Shown here piece by piece: positions 30,514 through 40,798 of a stretch of DNA of 64,000 bases. Each line of letters opens with the position of its first letter. The first letter of the stretch is position 1. The notes below the pieces were generated by a model. The model did no database searches, had not been told where the DNA came from, and worked only from the letters and a program-made list of their open reading frames with translations. The stretch is from Stigmatella erecta (lineage in GTDB: Bacteria > Myxococcota > Myxococcia > Myxococcales > Myxococcaceae), in contig NZ_FOIJ01000002.1 in assembly GCF_900111745.1 (NCBI RefSeq), positions 558,001-622,000 on the forward strand. The letters run 5' to 3'. Position numbers and translations under genes: made by a program.

Positions 30514-31626
30514 TCAGGGGGCCGGCAGCAGCCACGGCTTCGGGTCCACGGCCCGCCCATCCTGACGAATCTCGAAGTAGAGGTAGGCCCCCTTCAAGGA
30601 GCCCGTGTCGCCCACGGTGCCCACCGCATCCCCGGGCTGAAGCTCCGCGCCCACCTCGGGCGAGACGTTCTCCAGGTGGGCCATGAGCGAGTGGTAGCCG
30701 CCCCCGTGGTCGAGGATGAGCAGGTTGCCATAGCCGCGCAGCCAGCCTGCGTAGACCACCTTGCCTGCCGCCACGGCGCGCACCGGGGCGCCCGCCGGGG
30801 CCCGGATGTCCAACCCCTTCTGCACGGTGACAGTGTTGAAGCGGGGGTTCACCACCCGGCCGAACCCCACCTCCACCAGGCCCGGGGTGGGAAAGGGCAG
30901 CTTGCCGCGCAACGAGCGGAAGCCGGTGGCCGGAATCCCCGCCTCCATGTCGTCGATGATGCGCGTCAGGTCCGCGTCCGCCTGCTCCAGCTCGCGCACC
31001 ACGCGCCGGGCCAGCTCGGCCTCGCCCGCGAGGTTGGCCACCACCTCTTGCAGGGACTCCTGCTGCCGCTCGGCCAGCGCGGACTGCTCCTTGATGAAGG
31101 CCATGCGCGCGGTGAGCGAGGCCTGGAGCCGCTGGAGCTCCCGCAGGGCCCGGCCCTGGAGCCGCGCCACGTGCTGCACGGCGCGCAGCAGCTCCAGGTC
31201 GCTCTTCATGGTCGCCTCCAGCGTCCGCGCCCGCCAGACGAGCGAGGAGAAGTCCCGGGAGGACAGCAGCACCTCCAGGGGCTCGCGGCGCGTGAGCCGG
31301 TACATGGCGCGCAGGCGGGGCGAGAGCCGGTGGAGCTGCTGCCGGAACACCTCGCGCGCCACCGCCTCCTCGCGCTCGGCCACGGCCACGCGCTTGCGGA
31401 AGACGGCCATGTCCTTCTCCAGCACCTGCACGCGCCGGCGCGACAGGCTCACCATCTGCTCCAGCAGCTCCACCCCCTCCAGCACGGACACGCGCTTGGA
31501 CTCGATGAGGGCCACGGTGGCCCGCTGCGTGGCGAGCTGCTCGCGCACGGTGGCCCGCTCCGCGGCCTCGTCCTGGGCGAGCGCGGGAAGGCAGAGCAGA
31601 AGCACCAGAAGGAAGGCCCGGCTCAT
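30514..31626 (-). CDS. envC: EnvC-like amidase activator with degenerate LytM domain
   Basis: 370 residues. A signal peptide (AFLLVLLLCLPALAQ) is followed by a long coiled coil (~20-230) and a C-terminal M23/LytM domain. The zinc and catalytic residues are lost. Where active LytM domains have HxGxD the sequence is QKGLDI (His replaced by Gln), and where they have HLHFE it is YLYFE (both His replaced by Tyr). Loss of zinc residues is known for EnvC, which activates cell-wall amidases rather than cutting itself and is recruited by FtsEX. Here it directly follows ftsX, overlapping it by 4 nt (ATGA). Role: regulation of septal peptidoglycan splitting in the periplasm. Confidence 0.85.
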   Translation of the reverse strand: MSRAFLLVLLLCLPALAQDEAAERATVREQLATQRATVALIESKRVSVLEGVELLEQMVSLSRRRVQVLEKDMAVFRKRVAVAEREEAVAREVFRQQLHRLSPRLRAMYRLTRREPLEVLLSSRDFSSLVWRARTLEATMKSDLELLRAVQHVARLQGRALRELQRLQASLTARMAFIKEQSALAERQQESLQEVVANLAGEAELARRVVRELEQADADLTRIIDDMEAGIPATGFRSLRGKLPFPTPGLVEVGFGRVVNPRFNTVTVQKGLDIRAPAGAPVRAVAAGKVVYAGWLRGYGNLLILDHGGGYHSLMAHLENVSPEVGAELQPGDAVGTVGDTGSLKGAYLYFEIRQDGRAVDPKPWLLPAP

Positions 31627-32525
31627 ACCCGCAGGAAGCGCCCCACCGCGATGAAGCTGCCCACGAGCCCCAGTCCGCCCCCGGCCGCCACCAGCTCCAG
31701 CGCCAGCCCCGGGCTCACCAGCGGCCCGCCCGAGGCAGGCCCCAGGAGGAAGGAGAACAGCGAGGCCAGCGAGGGGCCCACGAGCTGGCTGAACAGCCAC
31801 AGCCCCGCGAGGGCCACCCCCGCGCCCAGGAGCCCCTGCAGGAGCCCTTCCATGAGGAAGGGGGCCTTCACGAAGCGGTCCGTGGCGCCCACGAGCTTCT
31901 GGATTTCGATCTCCTCGCGCCGCGCGTAGATGGCGAGCTGGAGCGTGGCGGACACGATGATGATGGTGGCGAAGAGCACCACCGCGAAGGCCACCACCCC
32001 GCCGTACCGCAGCGCCCGGGCGATGGCCGTCAGCCGCTCCACCGCCTCCTGGCCATAGTCCACGCCGGTGACTCCCGGCAGCGTGCGGACCTGCTGGGCG
32101 AGCGCCTCCAGCCCCTCGGGCGTGCGGCGCTCGGGCGCCACCGCCAGCTCCAGCGAGGGCGGCAGCGGGTTCTCCGGAAGCTGCGCGAGCGCCTCGCCCA
32201 GGTCTCCCAGCTCCCGCGCCAGCCGGTCCAGGGCCTCGTCCGGCTTCACCAGCACGGCCCGGCCGCCACTGGCGGCCTCCAGCTTCCCGCGCAGGGTCTC
32301 CACCTGCTCCGGGGCCAGCTCCGGCGCCAGGTACACCGTCACCTCCACCTCCCCGCCCAGCGAGGCGAGCAGCCCATCCAGGGCCTGTCCCGCGGTGCGG
32401 GTCAGCCCCGCGGCGAACAGCGCGATGGCGATGGTGGTGATGGCGATGAAGTGGACGAACGGGGAGTGCTTCAGCCCTCCGGCCGCCGAGCGCCAGAAGT
32501 AGGAGGCCTTGGCCAGCACCGTCAT
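31623..32525 (-). CDS. ftsX: Cell division protein FtsX
   Basis: 300 residues with one N-terminal and three C-terminal transmembrane helices around a periplasmic domain (~45-165). Landmarks are SYFWRSAAGGLKHSPFVHF, GEVEVTVYLAPE, GVVAFAVVLFATIII and the MacB/FtsX-like C-terminal helices. FtsX couples FtsE ATP hydrolysis to the periplasmic EnvC amidase activator. Four-base ATGA overlaps link it to ftsE upstream and envC downstream. Confidence 0.92.
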   Translation of the reverse strand: MTVLAKASYFWRSAAGGLKHSPFVHFIAITTIAIALFAAGLTRTAGQALDGLLASLGGEVEVTVYLAPELAPEQVETLRGKLEAASGGRAVLVKPDEALDRLARELGDLGEALAQLPENPLPPSLELAVAPERRTPEGLEALAQQVRTLPGVTGVDYGQEAVERLTAIARALRYGGVVAFAVVLFATIIIVSATLQLAIYARREEIEIQKLVGATDRFVKAPFLMEGLLQGLLGAGVALAGLWLFSQLVGPSLASLFSFLLGPASGGPLVSPGLALELVAAGGGLGLVGSFIAVGRFLRV

Positions 32526-33217
32526 ACCGCCGCCATCCGCCGGGCGGCCTTCACCCCGTCCTCGTCCGAGACGATGAAGCCGCGCTCCAGCCGCACCGTG
32601 CGCTTCTGGTAGCGCGCCAGGAGCGTGCTGTCGTGCGTGGCCACCATGACGGTGGTGCCGCGGATGTTCACCTGGTTGAGCAGGTCCATGATCTCCACGG
32701 TGAGCGCCGGGTCCAGGTTGCCCGTGGGCTCGTCGGCCAGGAGGATGGTCGGATCATTGACGAGCGCGCGCGCGATGACGACGCGCTGCTGCTCTCCACC
32801 GGACAGGCGCAGCGGGTACGAGCGGGCCTTGTGCTCCAGCCCCACCCGCTTGAGCATGCGGTGGACCTTCTCGCGCGCCTCGTCCCGGGGCACGCCCAGC
32901 ACATCCAGCGTGAAGGCGACGTTGTCCTCCACCGTGCGGTGGGGCAGCAGCTTGAAGTCCTGGAACACCACGCCGATGTTGCGCCGCAGGTAAGGCACCG
33001 CCGACTCGCGGATGCGCGCGATGTTCTTGCCCCCCACGAGGATCTGCCCCTTGGTGGCCTTCTCCGCGCAGAACAGGAGCTTCAGCAGCGTGGTCTTCCC
33101 CGCGCCCGAGGGGCCCGTCAGGAAGATGAACTCGCCCTTCTCGACGTGCAGGTTGACGTCCGAGAGCACCGGCGGGTCCCCCGGATACGACTTGTACACA
33201 TGGAAGATCTGGATCAT
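32522..33217 (-). CDS. ftsE: Cell division ATP-binding protein FtsE
   Basis: 231 residues. The ABC ATPase motifs are complete: GPSGAGKTTLLKLL (Walker A), LSGGEQQRVVIARAL (signature) and TILLADEPTGNLD (Walker B). IQIFHVYKSYPGDPPVL at the start is FtsE-like. It is the first gene of the ftsE-ftsX-envC operon and controls septal cell-wall hydrolysis from the cytoplasmic face. Confidence 0.94.
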   Translation of the reverse strand: MIQIFHVYKSYPGDPPVLSDVNLHVEKGEFIFLTGPSGAGKTTLLKLLFCAEKATKGQILVGGKNIARIRESAVPYLRRNIGVVFQDFKLLPHRTVEDNVAFTLDVLGVPRDEAREKVHRMLKRVGLEHKARSYPLRLSGGEQQRVVIARALVNDPTILLADEPTGNLDPALTVEIMDLLNQVNIRGTTVMVATHDSTLLARYQKRTVRLERGFIVSDEDGVKAARRMAAV

Positions 33218-33311
33218 CGGCCCGGGGATTGTGGCCCCAACTGGCGCCTGGCTCCACTCCGTGGCGCTCCCCTGCCCGTCCCCAGAGCGGAGCGCCGGGG
33301 CGAAGGCCCGC

Positions 33312-33719
33312 TCACCCCTCCGGGGGGGGGAACAGCGGGGTCAGCAGCGAGGTGACGAACACCCAGCGGGAGCCGTCCCCCAGCACCATCAGCCGGATGC
33401 GCACGTGGCGGGGGCCCCACCGGAAGCGGAAGTGGAAGTCAAAGCTCTCCGTGCCATGCCCGCGCTCGACGAGCGCATCGAAGCGCCCCCGGAAGCCGGC
33501 CACGTTGGTACAGGGGGCAATCTCCTCGAAGAAGCGTCGGCCCAGCACGGACGGCGTCGGCCGCCGGGAGAAGGCGGACTCCGCCGCGTTGTAGGCCAGC
33601 ACCTGGCCCTCGGCGTCCAGCTTGATGGCCCCGAACGGCAGCGCGTCGAACTCCTCGGGCGACAGGAGGCTCAGACGCTCTTCCGTCAATGACTCCGCGT
33701 TCAGGACCCGCTGCAGCAT
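33312..33719 (-). CDS. pyp: Photoactive yellow protein (PYP) homologue, PAS photoreceptor
   Basis: 135 residues, close to the 125 of Halorhodospira PYP. The ATG at 33719 follows an AGGGGGGA ribosome binding site; a longer frame to 33800 is less likely. The PAS core matches PYP closely: LPFGAIKLDAEG, then LAYNAAES, EEIAPCTNVAGFRGRF and SRWVFV. Aligned by eye with the founding PYP, the chromophore and proton-network residues are kept: Tyr43, Glu47 and Arg53 (Tyr42, Glu46, Arg52) and Cys70 (Cys69, the p-coumarate attachment site); Thr50 becomes Ser51. So a blue-light photocycle is plausible. No p-coumarate synthesis gene is nearby. It follows ftsE on the same strand after 94 nt and lies two genes from carF. 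Confidence 0.8.
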   Translation of the reverse strand: MLQRVLNAESLTEERLSLLSPEEFDALPFGAIKLDAEGQVLAYNAAESAFSRRPTPSVLGRRFFEEIAPCTNVAGFRGRFDALVERGHGTESFDFHFRFRWGPRHVRIRLMVLGDGSRWVFVTSLLTPLFPPPEG

Positions 33720-33828
33720 GGGACATCCCCCCTGGACATCCCCCGACCGGGAGGAGATGGCCTCCCTGGAATTGTACAGGGTGTGTTCAGGGATTGTCAC
33801 GCTTCTGCCCGGAAGGGCAGGGGCGGCC

Positions 33829-34386
<558 letters not shown>

Positions 34387-34623: not shown

Positions 34624-35469
34624 ATGAAGAACAACCTCCAGAACCAACTGCGTCAGCAGGACGCCCACGCGCTGGCCCAGGGCTACTCGCGCGCCATCCG
34701 CCTGATGGACATCGGCAGCATCGTCATCTTCTTCGCGCTGGAGCTGGGGCTGGCCTACCTGCTGTGGGGCAACCCCCACGTGGGCCCGTGGCTGCTGCTG
34801 AGCGCCATCCTCCTGGGGTACCTGGCGGCGGACTTCGTCTCGGGCTTCGTGCACTGGATGGCGGACACCTGGGGCTCCACCACCATGCCCGTGCTGGGCA
34901 AGGCCTTCGTGCGGCCCTTCCGTGAGCACCACGTGGACCAGAAGGCCATCACGCGCCACGACTTCATCGAGACGAACGGCAACAACTGTGCCATCTCCAT
35001 CCCCGTGGGCATCGCCACGCTGGTGATGCCGCACAGCAGCCCGGCGTGGGTGTTCCTCGCGGCGTTCCTGGGCTCGATGATTTTCTGGGTGATGGGGACC
35101 AACCAGTTCCACAAGTGGTCGCACCTGGACACGCCGGGCCCCGTGGTGAACTTCTTGCAGCGCGTGCACCTCATCCTGCCGCCGGCGCACCACCGCATCC
35201 ACCACACGGCGCCCTTCAACAAGTACTACTGCATCACCGTGGGCTGGCTGAACAAGCCGCTGGCGATGATCAGCTTCTTTCCCCTGATGGAGCGGCTCGT
35301 CACCTGGGCCACCGGCATGTTGCCGCGCCAGGACGACATCGGCACGGAGGCGGCCAAGGCCGTGCTGAAGGCCTCGGACGGGGAAGCGCCCATGGTCCAG
35401 GCCGCCAAGGCGCTGCTGGAGGGCACCGAGAAGCCGGAGCCGATCGCCCCCAGCGCCCTGCCCCGCTAG
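34624..35469 (+). CDS. carF: CarF/TMEM189 plasmanylethanolamine desaturase homologue
   Basis: 281 residues, the length of Myxococcus CarF. About four transmembrane segments carry the His motifs of the TMEM189/Kua family: HWMADTW, REHHVDQ, NQFHKWSH and HHRIHH, which should hold a di-iron site. CarF makes the vinyl-ether bond of plasmalogens and is needed to transmit the singlet-oxygen/light signal that turns on carotenoid genes in Myxococcus xanthus. Its stop codon shares a CTAG with the stop of the convergent murI gene. Confidence 0.92.
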   Translation: MKNNLQNQLRQQDAHALAQGYSRAIRLMDIGSIVIFFALELGLAYLLWGNPHVGPWLLLSAILLGYLAADFVSGFVHWMADTWGSTTMPVLGKAFVRPFREHHVDQKAITRHDFIETNGNNCAISIPVGIATLVMPHSSPAWVFLAAFLGSMIFWVMGTNQFHKWSHLDTPGPVVNFLQRVHLILPPAHHRIHHTAPFNKYYCITVGWLNKPLAMISFFPLMERLVTWATGMLPRQDDIGTEAAKAVLKASDGEAPMVQAAKALLEGTEKPEPIAPSALPR

Positions 35470-36278
35470 AAGCTCAGGTCCACCTGCTCGGCCGAGGCGA
35501 TGGGGCGCCCCAGGAAGCGGGCCCCCACCTCCACGAAGCGCTCGGGCACATCCGTCACGAAGTAGCCGTGCACGGGCGCCGGGCCCGGCGGCGCCAGCCC
35601 CTGGGTGCGCTCCAGGAGCGCCGCCACCGCCTCCGCCGTGGCCTCCGCCGAGTCCACCAGGGCCACCCGCGGGCCCACCACCTGGGCGATGACGTCCTTG
35701 AGCAGCGGGTAGTGGGTGCACCCGAGCACCAGGGTGTCCACGCCCTCCCGGGCGAAGTCCGCCAGGTACTCGCGCGCCACCAGCGCCGGCACGTCTCCCT
35801 GCGTCCACCCCTCCTCGGCCAGGGGAACGAAGAGCGGACAGGCCCGCGCCTTCACCGGCACGTGCGGGTCCGCCCGCTGCAGCTCCCGCTGGTAGGCCCC
35901 GGAGCGGATGGTGCCCGGCGTGCCGATGACGCCCACGCCGCCGCCCTTCGTCCGGCGCAGGGCCGCCTGGGCCCCCGGCGCGATGACGCCCATCACCGGC
36001 ACCGGCAGCGCCGCCGCCAGCGCGGGCAGGGCCACCGCGGAGGCCGTGTTGCAGGCCACCACCAGGAGCTTGATGCCCTTCTCCAGCAGGAACTGCGCGT
36101 TCTTGAGCGAGTAGCGCGTCACCACCTCGCCGGACTTGGTGCCGTAGGGCACGCGCGCCGTGTCGCCCAGGTAGAGGGTGCTCTCGTGAGGAAGGCGCTC
36201 CATCAGCGCCTTGAGGACGGTGAGTCCTCCGACGCCCGAGTCGAACACCCCGATGGGACCGTGGCTGCTTTGCCGCAT
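35466..36278 (-). CDS. murI: Glutamate racemase
   Basis: 270 residues. The ATG at 36278 with GGGAG 8 nt upstream is chosen over 36326. Landmarks are IGVFDSGVGGLTVLK, the two catalytic cysteines in VACNTASA and LGCTHYPLL, and GVIGTPGTI. It supplies D-glutamate for peptidoglycan. The two convergent stops with carF are one palindromic CTAG (35466-35469), so no terminator fits between the genes. Confidence 0.93.
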   Translation of the reverse strand: MRQSSHGPIGVFDSGVGGLTVLKALMERLPHESTLYLGDTARVPYGTKSGEVVTRYSLKNAQFLLEKGIKLLVVACNTASAVALPALAAALPVPVMGVIAPGAQAALRRTKGGGVGVIGTPGTIRSGAYQRELQRADPHVPVKARACPLFVPLAEEGWTQGDVPALVAREYLADFAREGVDTLVLGCTHYPLLKDVIAQVVGPRVALVDSAEATAEAVAALLERTQGLAPPGPAPVHGYFVTDVPERFVEVGARFLGRPIASAEQVDLSF

Positions 36279-36332
36279 GTCCGGGCTCCCTATCACGTTT
36301 GATGCCAACCCCCACCCTCCCCGCAAAGCGAA

Positions 36333-37388: not shown

Positions 37389-37536
37389 GGGGTGCGTCCA
37401 GGCGTTCGAAGAGGCGGCCGGGCGTTCAGGCCGTTGTGTCTTCTCGGACGCCGCCCCCCGCGTTTTATTCAGGCAGCCTGACGAGCCCCTTTGCTTTGTT
37501 TGACCACCCCGGATCGGAGTGCTACGGCCTGCACCC

Positions 37537-38244
37537 ATGATGTTCCGCCTGCCCCTGGCGCTCGGCGCCATGAACTACGTGGAGATTCTCCGCGGCGCGT
37601 CCTTCATCGAGCTGGCCGTGCTCATCCTGCTCATGGGCGTCTCCGTGGCGTCCTGGGGCCTCATCGTCATGAAGGCCACCCAGCTGTCCCGGGCCCGCAC
37701 ACAGTCACTTACCTTTCTAGACACCTTCTGGAAGGCGACGCGGCTGGAGGGCATCTACCAGACGGCGCGGGGGCTGGAGGGCTCGCCGCTGTCGAAGGTG
37801 TTCTGCGCGGGCTACGAGGAGCTGTCCAAGCTGGCCCAGGCCAAGGAGGGCCCCGAGGGGGCCATGAGCGACAAGCTCGGGGGCATCGAGAACGTGGAGC
37901 GGGCGCTGCACCGGGCCGCCACGGCGCAAATCACCGAGCTGGAGGCGCGCGTGCCGTTCCTGGGCACCGTGGGCGCCGCGGCCCCCTTCGTGGGGCTGTT
38001 CGGCACGGTGGTGGGCATCCTCAACGCCTTCAACGAGATCGCCGACAAGGGCAACGCCACGCTGTCCACGGTGGCCGCCCCCGTGGGCAACGCGCTGTTC
38101 GCCACGGCCGCGGGGCTCTTCGCGGCCATTCCCGCGGTGGTCGCCTACAACTCGTTCGTCAGCCGCATCAAGATCTTCGACACGGAGATGTCCAACTTCT
38201 CCGCCGACTTCCTGAACATCATCAAGCGGCACTTCTTCAAGTAG
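37537..38244 (+). CDS. tolQ: TolQ/ExbB-type proton channel
   Basis: 235 residues from the ATG at 37537 (37519 and 37570 are also possible). Three transmembrane segments are visible, with FLGTVGAAAPFVGLFGTVVGIL and LFATAAGLFAAIPAVVAYN, the conserved MotA/TolQ/ExbB helices. With TolR it uses the proton gradient to energise the outer membrane and septal constriction. First gene of the tol operon, 14 nt before tolR. Confidence 0.92.
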   Translation: MMFRLPLALGAMNYVEILRGASFIELAVLILLMGVSVASWGLIVMKATQLSRARTQSLTFLDTFWKATRLEGIYQTARGLEGSPLSKVFCAGYEELSKLAQAKEGPEGAMSDKLGGIENVERALHRAATAQITELEARVPFLGTVGAAAPFVGLFGTVVGILNAFNEIADKGNATLSTVAAPVGNALFATAAGLFAAIPAVVAYNSFVSRIKIFDTEMSNFSADFLNIIKRHFFK

Positions 38245-38258
38245 GAGCCGGGCGCGCC

Positions 38259-38744
38259 ATGGGCATGGGTGGAGGCAACAAGGGCCAGGGCCGCGTCACC
38301 ATGAGCGAGATCAACGTCACGCCCATGGTGGACGTGATGCTGGTGCTGCTCATCATCTTCATGGTGACCGCGCCGCTCATCCAGCAGGGCGTCAAGGTCA
38401 ACCTGCCCGAGGCGAAGGCCGCCCCGGTGGAGGCCGCCGAGAAGAAGCTCGTGCTCTCCATCGACGCCGGCCGGCGCGTCTTCATCGGGGACGCGGAGGT
38501 GCTCCTGGAGGAGCTGGAGACGAAGCTGGCCGCCAACGCCAAGGCGCAGGCCGAGAAGGAAATCTACCTGCACGCCGACCGCGACGTGCCCTACGGCGTC
38601 GTCGTGGAGGTCATGGCCGCCGCCCAGCGCGCGGGCATCACCAACGTGGGGATGATTACCGACCCCTCCGCCAAGGGCACCCGCACGGACCCGGCGCCCC
38701 CGGCCCCGGCGTCCAAAGGGGGAAAGAAGGAAGCGAAGCGCTAG
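38259..38744 (+). CDS. tolR: TolR/ExbD-type protein
   Basis: 161 residues. A single N-terminal transmembrane helix (MVDVMLVLLIIFMVTAP) carries the essential Asp of the TolR/ExbD family, preceded by MSEINVTP. A periplasmic domain (KEIYLHADRDVPYG) and a Lys-rich Pro/Ala tail follow. The start is at 38259 with AGGAG 11 nt upstream. The next gene begins 3 nt after the stop. Confidence 0.92.
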   Translation: MGMGGGNKGQGRVTMSEINVTPMVDVMLVLLIIFMVTAPLIQQGVKVNLPEAKAAPVEAAEKKLVLSIDAGRRVFIGDAEVLLEELETKLAANAKAQAEKEIYLHADRDVPYGVVVEVMAAAQRAGITNVGMITDPSAKGTRTDPAPPAPASKGGKKEAKR

Positions 38745-38747
38745 CCC

Positions 38748-39527
38748 ATGACCCTGCACCCGGCCGTCTCCCAGAGCATGCTCGCGGCCCGCCCGTCGCG
38801 GGCGGGACTGTTCATCGGGCTGTCCGTGGCGGGCCATGTCCTGCTGCTGGCCGTCGCGGCGCTCTACACGCACCTGACGGCCGCGCCGAAGGTGAACCCC
38901 AACGTTCCGGTCATCCGCGCCACGCTGGTGCGCCAGGGCAAGCCGAGGGACCCCAAGCTGCTGCCCCGCAAGGAGCAGCCCCCGCCGCCCCCCAAGGAAG
39001 TCAAAGCGCCGCCCGCCCCGGCCCCCACGCCGCCCCCGCCCGTGGAGAAGGTCTCGGTGCCCGTGCCCGGGATGAAGCCCGCCACACCGCCCCCCGCGCC
39101 CCAGAAGGGCGAGGCCACGGGCGAGGACCGGCGCAAGCGGCTCTTCGGCGCCTTCGACAAGACCGCGCAGAAGCCCACCGAGCCCGAGGAGCTGGAGGGC
39201 GCCGAGGACGGCGACCCGGATGGCGACTCGGCCATCGCCGAGGGCGAGCGCTACTACGCGCTGCTGTCCACCCAGGTGCGCCGCAACTACAACGTCGCGG
39301 ACACCATCCCCGAGTCCGAGCGCCTCCACCTCAAGGCCCAGGTGCAGATGCGCCTGGGCCGCACGGGGGAAGTGCTGGAGACCCGCCTGGTGGCCTCCAG
39401 CGGGAATGATCTCTTCGACTCCTCCGTCCTGGCCGCGGTGAAGAAGGCCTCTCCCTTCTCGCCGCCCCCCGCCCATCTTCGTGACGCGCTCCAGAAACAG
39501 GGCGTCGTCCTGGAGTTCCGTCCATGA
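38748..39527 (+). CDS. TonB/TolA-like energy transducer
   Basis: 259 residues. An N-terminal transmembrane anchor (~25-45) is followed by a Pro/Lys-rich spacer (PPPPPKEVKAPPAPAPTPPPP) and a TonB-type C-terminal domain (LKAQVQMRLGRTGEVLETRL, SSVLAAVKKASPF). It occupies the tolA position between tolR and tolB but lacks the long Ala/Lys helix of Escherichia coli TolA, so it looks like a TonB-domain TolA substitute. It overlaps tolB by 4 nt. Confidence 0.82.
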   Translation: MTLHPAVSQSMLAARPSRAGLFIGLSVAGHVLLLAVAALYTHLTAAPKVNPNVPVIRATLVRQGKPRDPKLLPRKEQPPPPPKEVKAPPAPAPTPPPPVEKVSVPVPGMKPATPPPAPQKGEATGEDRRKRLFGAFDKTAQKPTEPEELEGAEDGDPDGDSAIAEGERYYALLSTQVRRNYNVADTIPESERLHLKAQVQMRLGRTGEVLETRLVASSGNDLFDSSVLAAVKKASPFSPPPAHLRDALQKQGVVLEFRP

Positions 39528-40798
39528 AAGCCCTGCTGCTGTCGCTGCTGCTCCTGCCCCTGGCGGCCTTCGCCCAGGCCCCGGTCATTCAGATCTCCGG
39601 CGCCAACTTCCGCCCCCTGCCGCTGGCCTACCCCGCCCCCCAGTCCGTGGATGACGGCGGAAAGAAGGCCGCCGCGGACTTCGATGCCCCGTTCCTGTTC
39701 GACCTTCGGGCCTCGGGCCTGTTCCAGGTGCTGGACCGCGCCAGCTTCACCGCGGACGCCAAGGAGGGCATCACCGCGGGCAGCATCAACTTCGCGCGCT
39801 GGGCGGACGTGGGCGCCGAGTCGCTCGTGAAGGTGCAGCTCGGCGCGGAGGGCGGCACGCTGCGCGGCGAGCTGCGCCTGTTCAACGTGGGCTCCGGCCG
39901 GGAGGACTTCAAGGCCAGCCACGCCGTGCCCGCCGCCGAGCCCCGGCAGCTCGCGCACTTCCTCGCCGACGCCCTCTACCGCCACCTCACCCGGGAGCCG
40001 AGCCCCTTCCTGTCCCGCATCGTGTTCGTGCGCAAGGCGCGCGACAACCGGGACGTGTGGACCGCCGACTGGGATGGCCACAACGCACGCGCCCTCACCA
40101 GCGGCGGCATCAACCTGCTGCCCGCCCTGGGCACCGGCGGCACCGTGGCCTACACCTCGTACCGCAAGGGCCAGCCGGACCTCTACCTCCAGAAGGCCGG
40201 GGGCGAGGCCCAGGCCATCGTCCAGAATGGGCAGATGGCCACCGGCGTGGCGTTCTCCCCGGACGGCAAGCGCATCGCCTATGCGCAGGCCCAGGGCGAG
40301 AGCACGCAGATCTTCCTGGCCAACGCGGACGGGAGCGAGCCCAAGCGCATCACCGACACCCCCTACGGCATCAATTCCAGCCCCACCTGGTCGCCGGACG
40401 GCAAGCGCCTCGCCTTCGTGTCCAACCGGGGCGGCTCACCGCAGATCTACGTGATGAACGCGGACGGGACGAACGCCCGCCGGTTGACCTTCCAGGGCAA
40501 CTACAACCAGACCCCGGACTGGTCTCCGCGGGGCGATCTCATCGCCTTCACCGCGCGCGATGAGCGCAACGCCTTCGATCTGTTCACCGTGAACGTGGAC
40601 ACCGGCAAGATTGCCCGGCTGACGCAGGACCAGGGCAACAACGAGGAGCCGGTCTTCTCCCCCAACGGGCGGCTCATCCTCTTCAGCTCCACGCGCAATG
40701 GGACGGGCCAGCTCTTCGTGATGACGGCCGAGGGCAACAATCCGCTCGCGCTTCCGATGGAAAAAGGAGGCGGACTCACCCCAGACTGGGCGCCATGA
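39524..40798 (+). CDS. tolB: Tol-Pal system beta-propeller protein TolB
   Basis: 424 residues. A signal peptide (KALLLSLLLLPLAAFA) leads to the TolB N-terminal domain, then four or five PD40 propeller blades (e.g. FSPDGKRIAYAQ, WSPDGKRLAFVSN, FSPNGRLILFSS). TolB acts in the periplasm, bridging TolA and Pal. It overlaps the tonB-like gene upstream and the aminotransferase gene downstream by 4 nt. No pal gene is adjacent. Confidence 0.92.
   Translation: MKALLLSLLLLPLAAFAQAPVIQISGANFRPLPLAYPAPQSVDDGGKKAAADFDAPFLFDLRASGLFQVLDRASFTADAKEGITAGSINFARWADVGAESLVKVQLGAEGGTLRGELRLFNVGSGREDFKASHAVPAAEPRQLAHFLADALYRHLTREPSPFLSRIVFVRKARDNRDVWTADWDGHNARALTSGGINLLPALGTGGTVAYTSYRKGQPDLYLQKAGGEAQAIVQNGQMATGVAFSPDGKRIAYAQAQGESTQIFLANADGSEPKRITDTPYGINSSPTWSPDGKRLAFVSNRGGSPQIYVMNADGTNARRLTFQGNYNQTPDWSPRGDLIAFTARDERNAFDLFTVNVDTGKIARLTQDQGNNEEPVFSPNGRLILFSSTRNGTGQLFVMTAEGNNPLALPMEKGGGLTPDWAP

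Follow-up and report, generated by a model that had tools for sequence, protein, structure and literature searches.

A selected, single-domain photoactive yellow protein gene beside romY in Stigmatella erecta, in a genome without the canonical chromophore genes

The window analyzed here, a stretch of 64,000 nucleotides from the genome of Stigmatella erecta, contains a genuine, selected and standalone photoactive yellow protein (PYP) gene of a myxobacterial clade, designated type A. Judged by its sequence and its modelled fold, the product is probably a competent apophotoreceptor, and we hold with moderate confidence that it functions as a single-domain p-hydroxycinnamate photoreceptor with a most likely external chromophore. 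The presence of PYPs in myxobacteria, including Stigmatella, is already known (PMC9664959, PMC11832031), and the origin of the PYP family has been placed in the Myxococcota (PMC9664959). The fixed pairing of pyp with romY, a second PYP of the genus with Phe at position 42, and the lack of chromophore genes were not found among the papers listed for PYP, myxobacteria, Stigmatella, RomY, FtsE, FtsEX and CarF; the string "fts" is absent from the main text of PMC12826048, and "ftsx" from PMC9664959.

Results

The pyp frame and its selection

The pyp gene extends from 33312 to 33719 on the minus strand and encodes 135 amino acids, with an ATG at 33719 and a stop codon ending at 33312. The initial annotation had proposed an open reading frame at this position with no strand given, and had regarded its product as an independent protein; both proposals are borne out, as the position of the ATG and the length of 135 residues are common to the four type A copies of the genus, all with intact frames that begin and end as a single domain. 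Membership of the domain in a larger protein was accordingly rejected. The ribosome-binding site invoked in the same annotation is present as a run of G residues, while a textbook Shine-Dalgarno motif is lacking. A promoter-like site, GTGACA-N18-TACAAT, precedes the gene on the same strand (33771 to 33800; 10 of 12 consensus matches) and was the only one in 1,601 bases, compared with 0.1 (sd 0.4) expected from shuffled sequence. Both hexamers are conserved in the four copies of the genus, apart from one base of the second hexamer that differs in two of them. A longer frame of 162 residues, starting from a GTG at 33800, was rejected because this GTG belongs to the first hexamer of the conserved promoter-like site.

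In all six pairwise comparisons within the genus dN/dS ranged from 0.20 to 0.37, which indicates that the frame is under purifying selection. At the same time, pyp is the fastest-changing among the compared genes of its locus: between the window and the same locus of the congeneric genome G038 the PYPs are 81-83% identical, compared with 99% for FtsE, 94% for both FtsX and RomY, and 87% for CarF. This pace of change, together with the restriction of type A to 9 of 96 family genomes and its absence from 3 of the 7 genomes of the genus, could be explained if pyp were a decaying remnant without a current role in the family. The dN/dS values, the intact frames and the promoter-like site kept in all four copies argue against such decay, which we regard as very unlikely.

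Membership of the PYP family

A phmmer search of the PDB returned the PYP domain of Ppr from Rhodospirillum centenum (1mzu) as the best match (E=2.3e-22; 42-46% identity), followed by entries of the Halorhodospira halophila PYP (E of about 1e-20, residues 13-123), and with a threshold of E<=0.001 the search yielded 33 PDB sequences, every one of them a PYP, Ppr or a PYP-derived tag. The NCBIfam model TIGR02373 (photo_yellow) scored 97.9 bits (E=4.1e-28) and thus did not reach its equivalog cut-off of 143.05, although this model covers only about 20% of the PYP homologues considered in PMC9664959; Pfam recognized PAS_4 and PAS only. An AlphaFold2 model of the protein (pLDDT 87.8, pTM 0.81) was closest to the H. 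halophila PYP (2phy) in Foldseek (E=3.3e-11, TM 0.82/0.88), where the first 40 rows were all PYPs or PYP-derived, and VIA-align gave a Z of 20.3 for PYP (rmsd 1.5 over 120 residues) relative to 12.9 for the first PAS domain that is not a PYP.

Residue numbers in the window protein exceed those of the H. halophila PYP by one. The equivalents of Tyr42, Glu46, Arg52 and Cys69 are retained as Tyr43 (codon 33591-33593), Glu47 (33579-33581), Arg53 and Cys70 (33510-33512; all codons on the minus strand), while Thr50 is replaced by Ser51 and the position equivalent to Met100 is occupied by Trp. The assignment to the PYP family and the retained residues, both put forward in the initial annotation, hold. 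In PMC9664959 the family is defined by homology together with the residues that bind p-coumaric acid (pCA), and the window protein combines a homology to PYPs above that to other PAS domains, the equivalents of Cys69, Tyr42 and Glu46 and, in the model, the PYP version of the PAS fold. Like the H. halophila PYP it is a single domain of similar length and fold with the Ala67-Pro68-Cys69 loop, but the two proteins share only about 33% identity and differ in Ser for Thr50, Trp for Met100 and Phe for both Tyr94 and Tyr98. The Ppr domain also has Ser at position 50 (PMC12826048); however, Ppr is a fusion of PYP, phytochrome and kinase (PMC9664959), whereas the domain in the window stands alone.

Distribution of type A and other PYPs in Myxococcaceae

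A PYP match at E<=0.001 was obtained in 37 of 96 Myxococcaceae genomes. Type A proteins (58-100% identity) occur in nine, namely the genome of the window (G000), three others of the genus (G036, G037 and G038), G056, G079, G014, G015 and G051. From the 53 PYP matches in the family, the 31 with loci entered the alignments and the tree, and the other 22 were left out. In a tree of 112 domains type A formed one clade of 11 rows (support 100/98), in which G014 and G056 are each represented by an additional, named copy, as did a second type, B (17 rows; 100/91), and a group of V4R-like fusions (4 rows; 100/99); since the columns are few and the branches long, the deep joins of this tree are unsure. 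The PYP of G049 (49% identity) falls beside type B. Citreicoccus inhibens and Pyxidicoccus fallax also carried type A in a named genome collection, where no match outside the Myxococcaceae exceeded 52% identity; both statements refer to the 80 of 550 relatives listed, a selection that may omit records near the genome of the window. At four loci (L014, L018, L022 and L023) a PYP domain forms the N-terminus of a longer frame whose C-terminal stretch appears V4R-like by eye; PYP-V4R fusions have been published (PMC12826048).

The genome of the window contains a type B gene in addition to pyp (G000:C3:307986-308360, loci L002 and L094), the product of which is 40% identical to that of pyp, and G038 likewise has two PYP-like genes, in contrast to the single PYP reported for S. 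aurantiaca (PMC11832031). The type B protein keeps Glu46 and Cys69 but has Phe42, Ala50, Ile52 and His100, and this pocket is common to all 17 type B proteins read. Position 100 is consistently Trp in type A (9 of 9) and His in type B (17 of 17), while Met occurs in 54 of 111 aligned rows. Cys69 is present in all 111 rows, partly by construction, as 80 of them had been retrieved by means of a pattern that includes APCT, unlike the other 31. The equivalents of Glu46, Ala67, Pro68 and Cys69 do not vary among the 16 members of the family that were aligned, and in type A both Cys69 and Glu46 are found in nine of nine proteins and Tyr42 in seven, the two others (G014 and G015) having Phe42. The type A pocket as a whole was not significantly more conserved than the rest of the protein (1532 of 20000 random sets were as high), and the type B pocket was (133 of 20000).

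Chromophore genes

The genome of the window encodes three proteins of the aromatic lyase family (PF00221), none of the tyrosine ammonia-lyase (TAL) type. One is HutH with a Ser-His selectivity pair; the second is a histidine ammonia-lyase (HAL)-like protein with an Ala-His pair and a histidine ammonia-lyase as its best PDB match; and the third is a putatively secreted homologue with GEAD replacing ASGD. This third protein (L093:6488-8131, plus strand; also L086 and L087), a HAL homologue found in three genomes of the genus, has GEAD in place of the MIO-forming ASGD, a signal-peptide-like start and a neighboring porin-like gene, the last two judged by eye. The His-Leu pair of 2o6y, which we take to be the TAL of R. 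sphaeroides (PDB entry text: putative histidine ammonia-lyase), is in none of the three. HAL-like enzymes of this genome may have residual activity with tyrosine.

The ligase model TIGR02372 did not exceed its cut-off in any of the 96 family genomes (best 114 bits). In the genome of the window (17 of 76 candidates scored) the best match scored 59.7 bits and covered only about a quarter of the model (positions 286-385). As a control, eight PYP-containing genomes of other groups were searched; six gave matches of 278-338 bits near full length, one of the eight exceeded the cut-off, and two had no ligase. The standard pathway is thus missing from this genome and not just unlinked to pyp. A TAL-type lyase and a PYP-type ligase were likewise not found in any of the four type A genomes of the genus (G000, G036, G037 and G038). 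In both G056 and G038 HutH is the only intact lyase (in G038 beside a motif-less homologue), and Tyr42, Glu46 and Cys69 are kept in both. The Halorhodospira-type pyp-pCL-TAL system was not found in S. erecta, whose genome has no such operon, no PYP-type ligase and no TAL-type lyase.

Elsewhere in the family, a ligase of the pCL-TAL pair was found near full length in seven of the 96 genomes, with G060 as an eighth, weak match, in a search that scored at most 17 candidates per genome out of as many as 349. These seven include three of the nine type A genomes (G014, G015 and G051), an overlap with a hypergeometric tail of 0.017 when kinship is ignored, and three genomes without any PYP match (G045, G081 and G082). 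The same three type A genomes have a His-Leu lyase, which adjoins the ligase gene and is nearest to 2o6y in G051. In G014 the neighbors of the lyase-ligase pair encode a halogenase-like FAD enzyme, a methyltransferase and a glycosyltransferase-acyltransferase, surroundings that resemble an aryl-polyene pigment cluster. Since the ligase also occurs in PYP-less genomes and the G014 pair has these pigment-like surroundings, there is no clear sign that the pair is a pathway dedicated to PYP in this family.

A tyrosine ammonia-lyase and a coumarate ligase were the genes that the initial annotation had looked to elsewhere in the genome, taking the lack of a p-coumarate pathway to point to a light-independent PAS sensor; neither a TAL-type lyase nor a PYP-type ligase was found. 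Its interpretation is well supported as regards an independent member of the PYP family whose pocket is suited to pCA, judging from the fold, the residues and the clade, and less so as regards a photoreceptor. As a criterion the absence is weak, because a published survey of predicted pyp operons counted TAL in no more than 5% of them and pCL in 32% (PMC12826048), and two of our eight control genomes lacked the ligase. Nevertheless, the protein could be a light-independent or otherwise-liganded sensor with the PYP fold, in which Cys70 would respond to some other electrophile or to a thiol or redox signal, or would bind a different acyl thioester. In line with such a role are the missing lyase and ligase in the four type A genomes of the genus, Phe42 in the proteins of G014 and G015, the replacement of Met100 by Trp throughout type A, and the light-to-redox switch proposed for some PYPs (PMC9664959). 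On the other hand, Glu46 and Cys69 are retained in every type A protein and Tyr42 in most of them, PYPs with Tyr42Phe but with Glu46 and Cys69 have been counted as functional (PMC9664959), and published pyp operons usually have no TAL or pCL gene linked to them (PMC12826048). We therefore consider this possibility doubtful, though worth serious attention. If the protein is a photoreceptor, as we prefer to assume, its chromophore is likely external, since the genome lacks both TAL and a PYP-type ligase, and uptake has been named as a possible chromophore source (PMC12826048).

The romY-ftsEX locus

Directly upstream of pyp and on the same strand lies romY (33829-34386, minus; 185 residues as searched), identified by the RomY_Nterm model NF053858 (134.9 bits, cut-off 50) and single-copy in the four genomes searched with this model. 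It is the counterpart of MXAN_5749 of Myxococcus xanthus, where RomY regulates the GAP activity of MglB and is needed for a proper reversal frequency; its discoverers stated that no flanking gene had previously been tied to motility (PMC9481161). Downstream of pyp follow ftsE (32522-33217, minus; TIGR02673 302.5 bits, above the cut-off of 264.85), ftsX (31623-32525, minus; TIGR00439 253.6 bits, just below the cut-off of 255, with an FtsX_ECD domain, PF18075), which overlaps ftsE by 4 bp, and a gene for an EnvC-like M23 peptidase (30514-31800, minus; PF01551 E=4.4e-29), for which the murein hydrolase activator EnvC is the closest NCBIfam model, though below its cut-off; the GTG start taken here overlaps ftsX, and the true start probably lies further inside the frame. 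Divergent from romY is carF (34624-35469, plus; NF045946 551.7 bits, above the cut-off of 500), encoding a plasmanylethanolamine desaturase, an enzyme of plasmalogen formation that takes part in the carotenoid response to blue light (PMC9131029, PMC8156234); it is present at the locus with or without pyp. Next to it is the glutamate racemase gene murI (35466-36326, minus; TIGR00067 235.5 bits, above the cut-off of 146.65). Frames resembling an ordinary tolQ-tolR-tolA-tolB cell-envelope operon were seen by eye at 37519-40798.

The backbone of murI, carF, romY, ftsE and ftsX is kept across much of the family. Among 30 romY loci read, romY adjoins ftsE in 21, pyp lies between them in four (those of the genus), and ftsE is not within 1.5 kb in five, where another gene, for example an aminomutase-like or a DASS-like transporter gene (by eye, in the two of these five read), is present. 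The junction between romY and ftsE (33217-33829 in the window) has received different genes in different genera. Beside romY and on its strand, pyp is found in eight of the nine type A genomes, representing three genera, although the G056 contig breaks off within romY. Only G051 departs from this, with pyp and romY on different contigs. Other DNA separates pyp from ftsE in G014/G015 and G056/G079 but never romY from pyp. Read plainly, one ancestral insertion of pyp beside romY was followed by repeated loss.

Such an arrangement raises the possibility, compatible with a photoreceptor, that excited PYP acts on RomY, and thereby on MglB GAP activity and reversal, or on FtsEX-EnvC via shared transcription. 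The persistence of the romY-pyp adjacency despite the genes that entered the pyp-ftsE gap in two genera would fit such an output, as would the distance of only about 95 bp between pyp and ftsE within the genus, on the same strand and with no terminator-like site found between them on the minus strand, and the control of reversal frequency by RomY in M. xanthus (PMC9481161). Yet the backbone lacks pyp at 26 of the 30 loci, so that the adjacency may represent one inherited position; moreover, pyp lies behind a promoter-like site of its own, PYP was not seen fused to RomY or to proteins of FtsEX-EnvC, and the contigs of G051 provide a counterexample. An output of this kind thus appears unlikely to us.

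Discussion

The photoreceptor that we propose would operate as follows. Cys70 would take up an activated p-hydroxycinnamate, the phenolate of which would be held by Tyr43 and Glu47, and blue light would cause isomerization and proton transfer, leading to partial unfolding to a signaling state. The chromophore would most likely come from outside, from plant matter, and be activated by a general CoA ligase of the genome. By analogy with two measured PYPs with Ser50, which absorb at 432-434 nm (PMC12826048), the Ser in the window protein points to an absorption maximum shifted to the blue, at about 430-440 nm. Met100 is among the candidate tuning residues (PMC12826048). The Trp found there in the window protein points to a dark recovery that is altered and probably slow. 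Changes of Met100 in the H. halophila PYP slow its dark recovery. An organism that responds to light is also consistent with two phytochrome genes in the genome of the window (G000:C21:90825-91367 and G000:C12:222571-223095; PF00360 205.6 and 171.8 bits), as reported for S. aurantiaca. Against the photoreceptor stand the missing canonical chromophore pathway, the fast change of the gene, a type A pocket that is not significantly more conserved than the rest of the protein, and the absence of type A from most relatives.

A downstream partner of the H. halophila PYP was never identified (PMC9664959), and the signal chain behind PYPs has been described as an important gap (PMC12826048). The pyp-romY pair provides a named candidate partner, for which the biochemistry of the MglA GTPase, MglB and RomY has been worked out in M. 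xanthus, and the conservation of the pair together with the known biochemistry of RomY makes a control of polarity by light directly testable. In its most far-reaching form, which we rate as a long shot, a blue-light receptor would be wired into the switch of gliding polarity, with PYP altering the GAP activity of MglB/RomY, and hence reversal, and with a need for a plant hydroxycinnamate. The missing chromophore genes also make it possible to test whether a PYP can live on environmental p-coumarate. If the polarity switch were indeed the target, this PYP would sense light only where plant matter is at hand, because the cell itself would make no p-coumarate.
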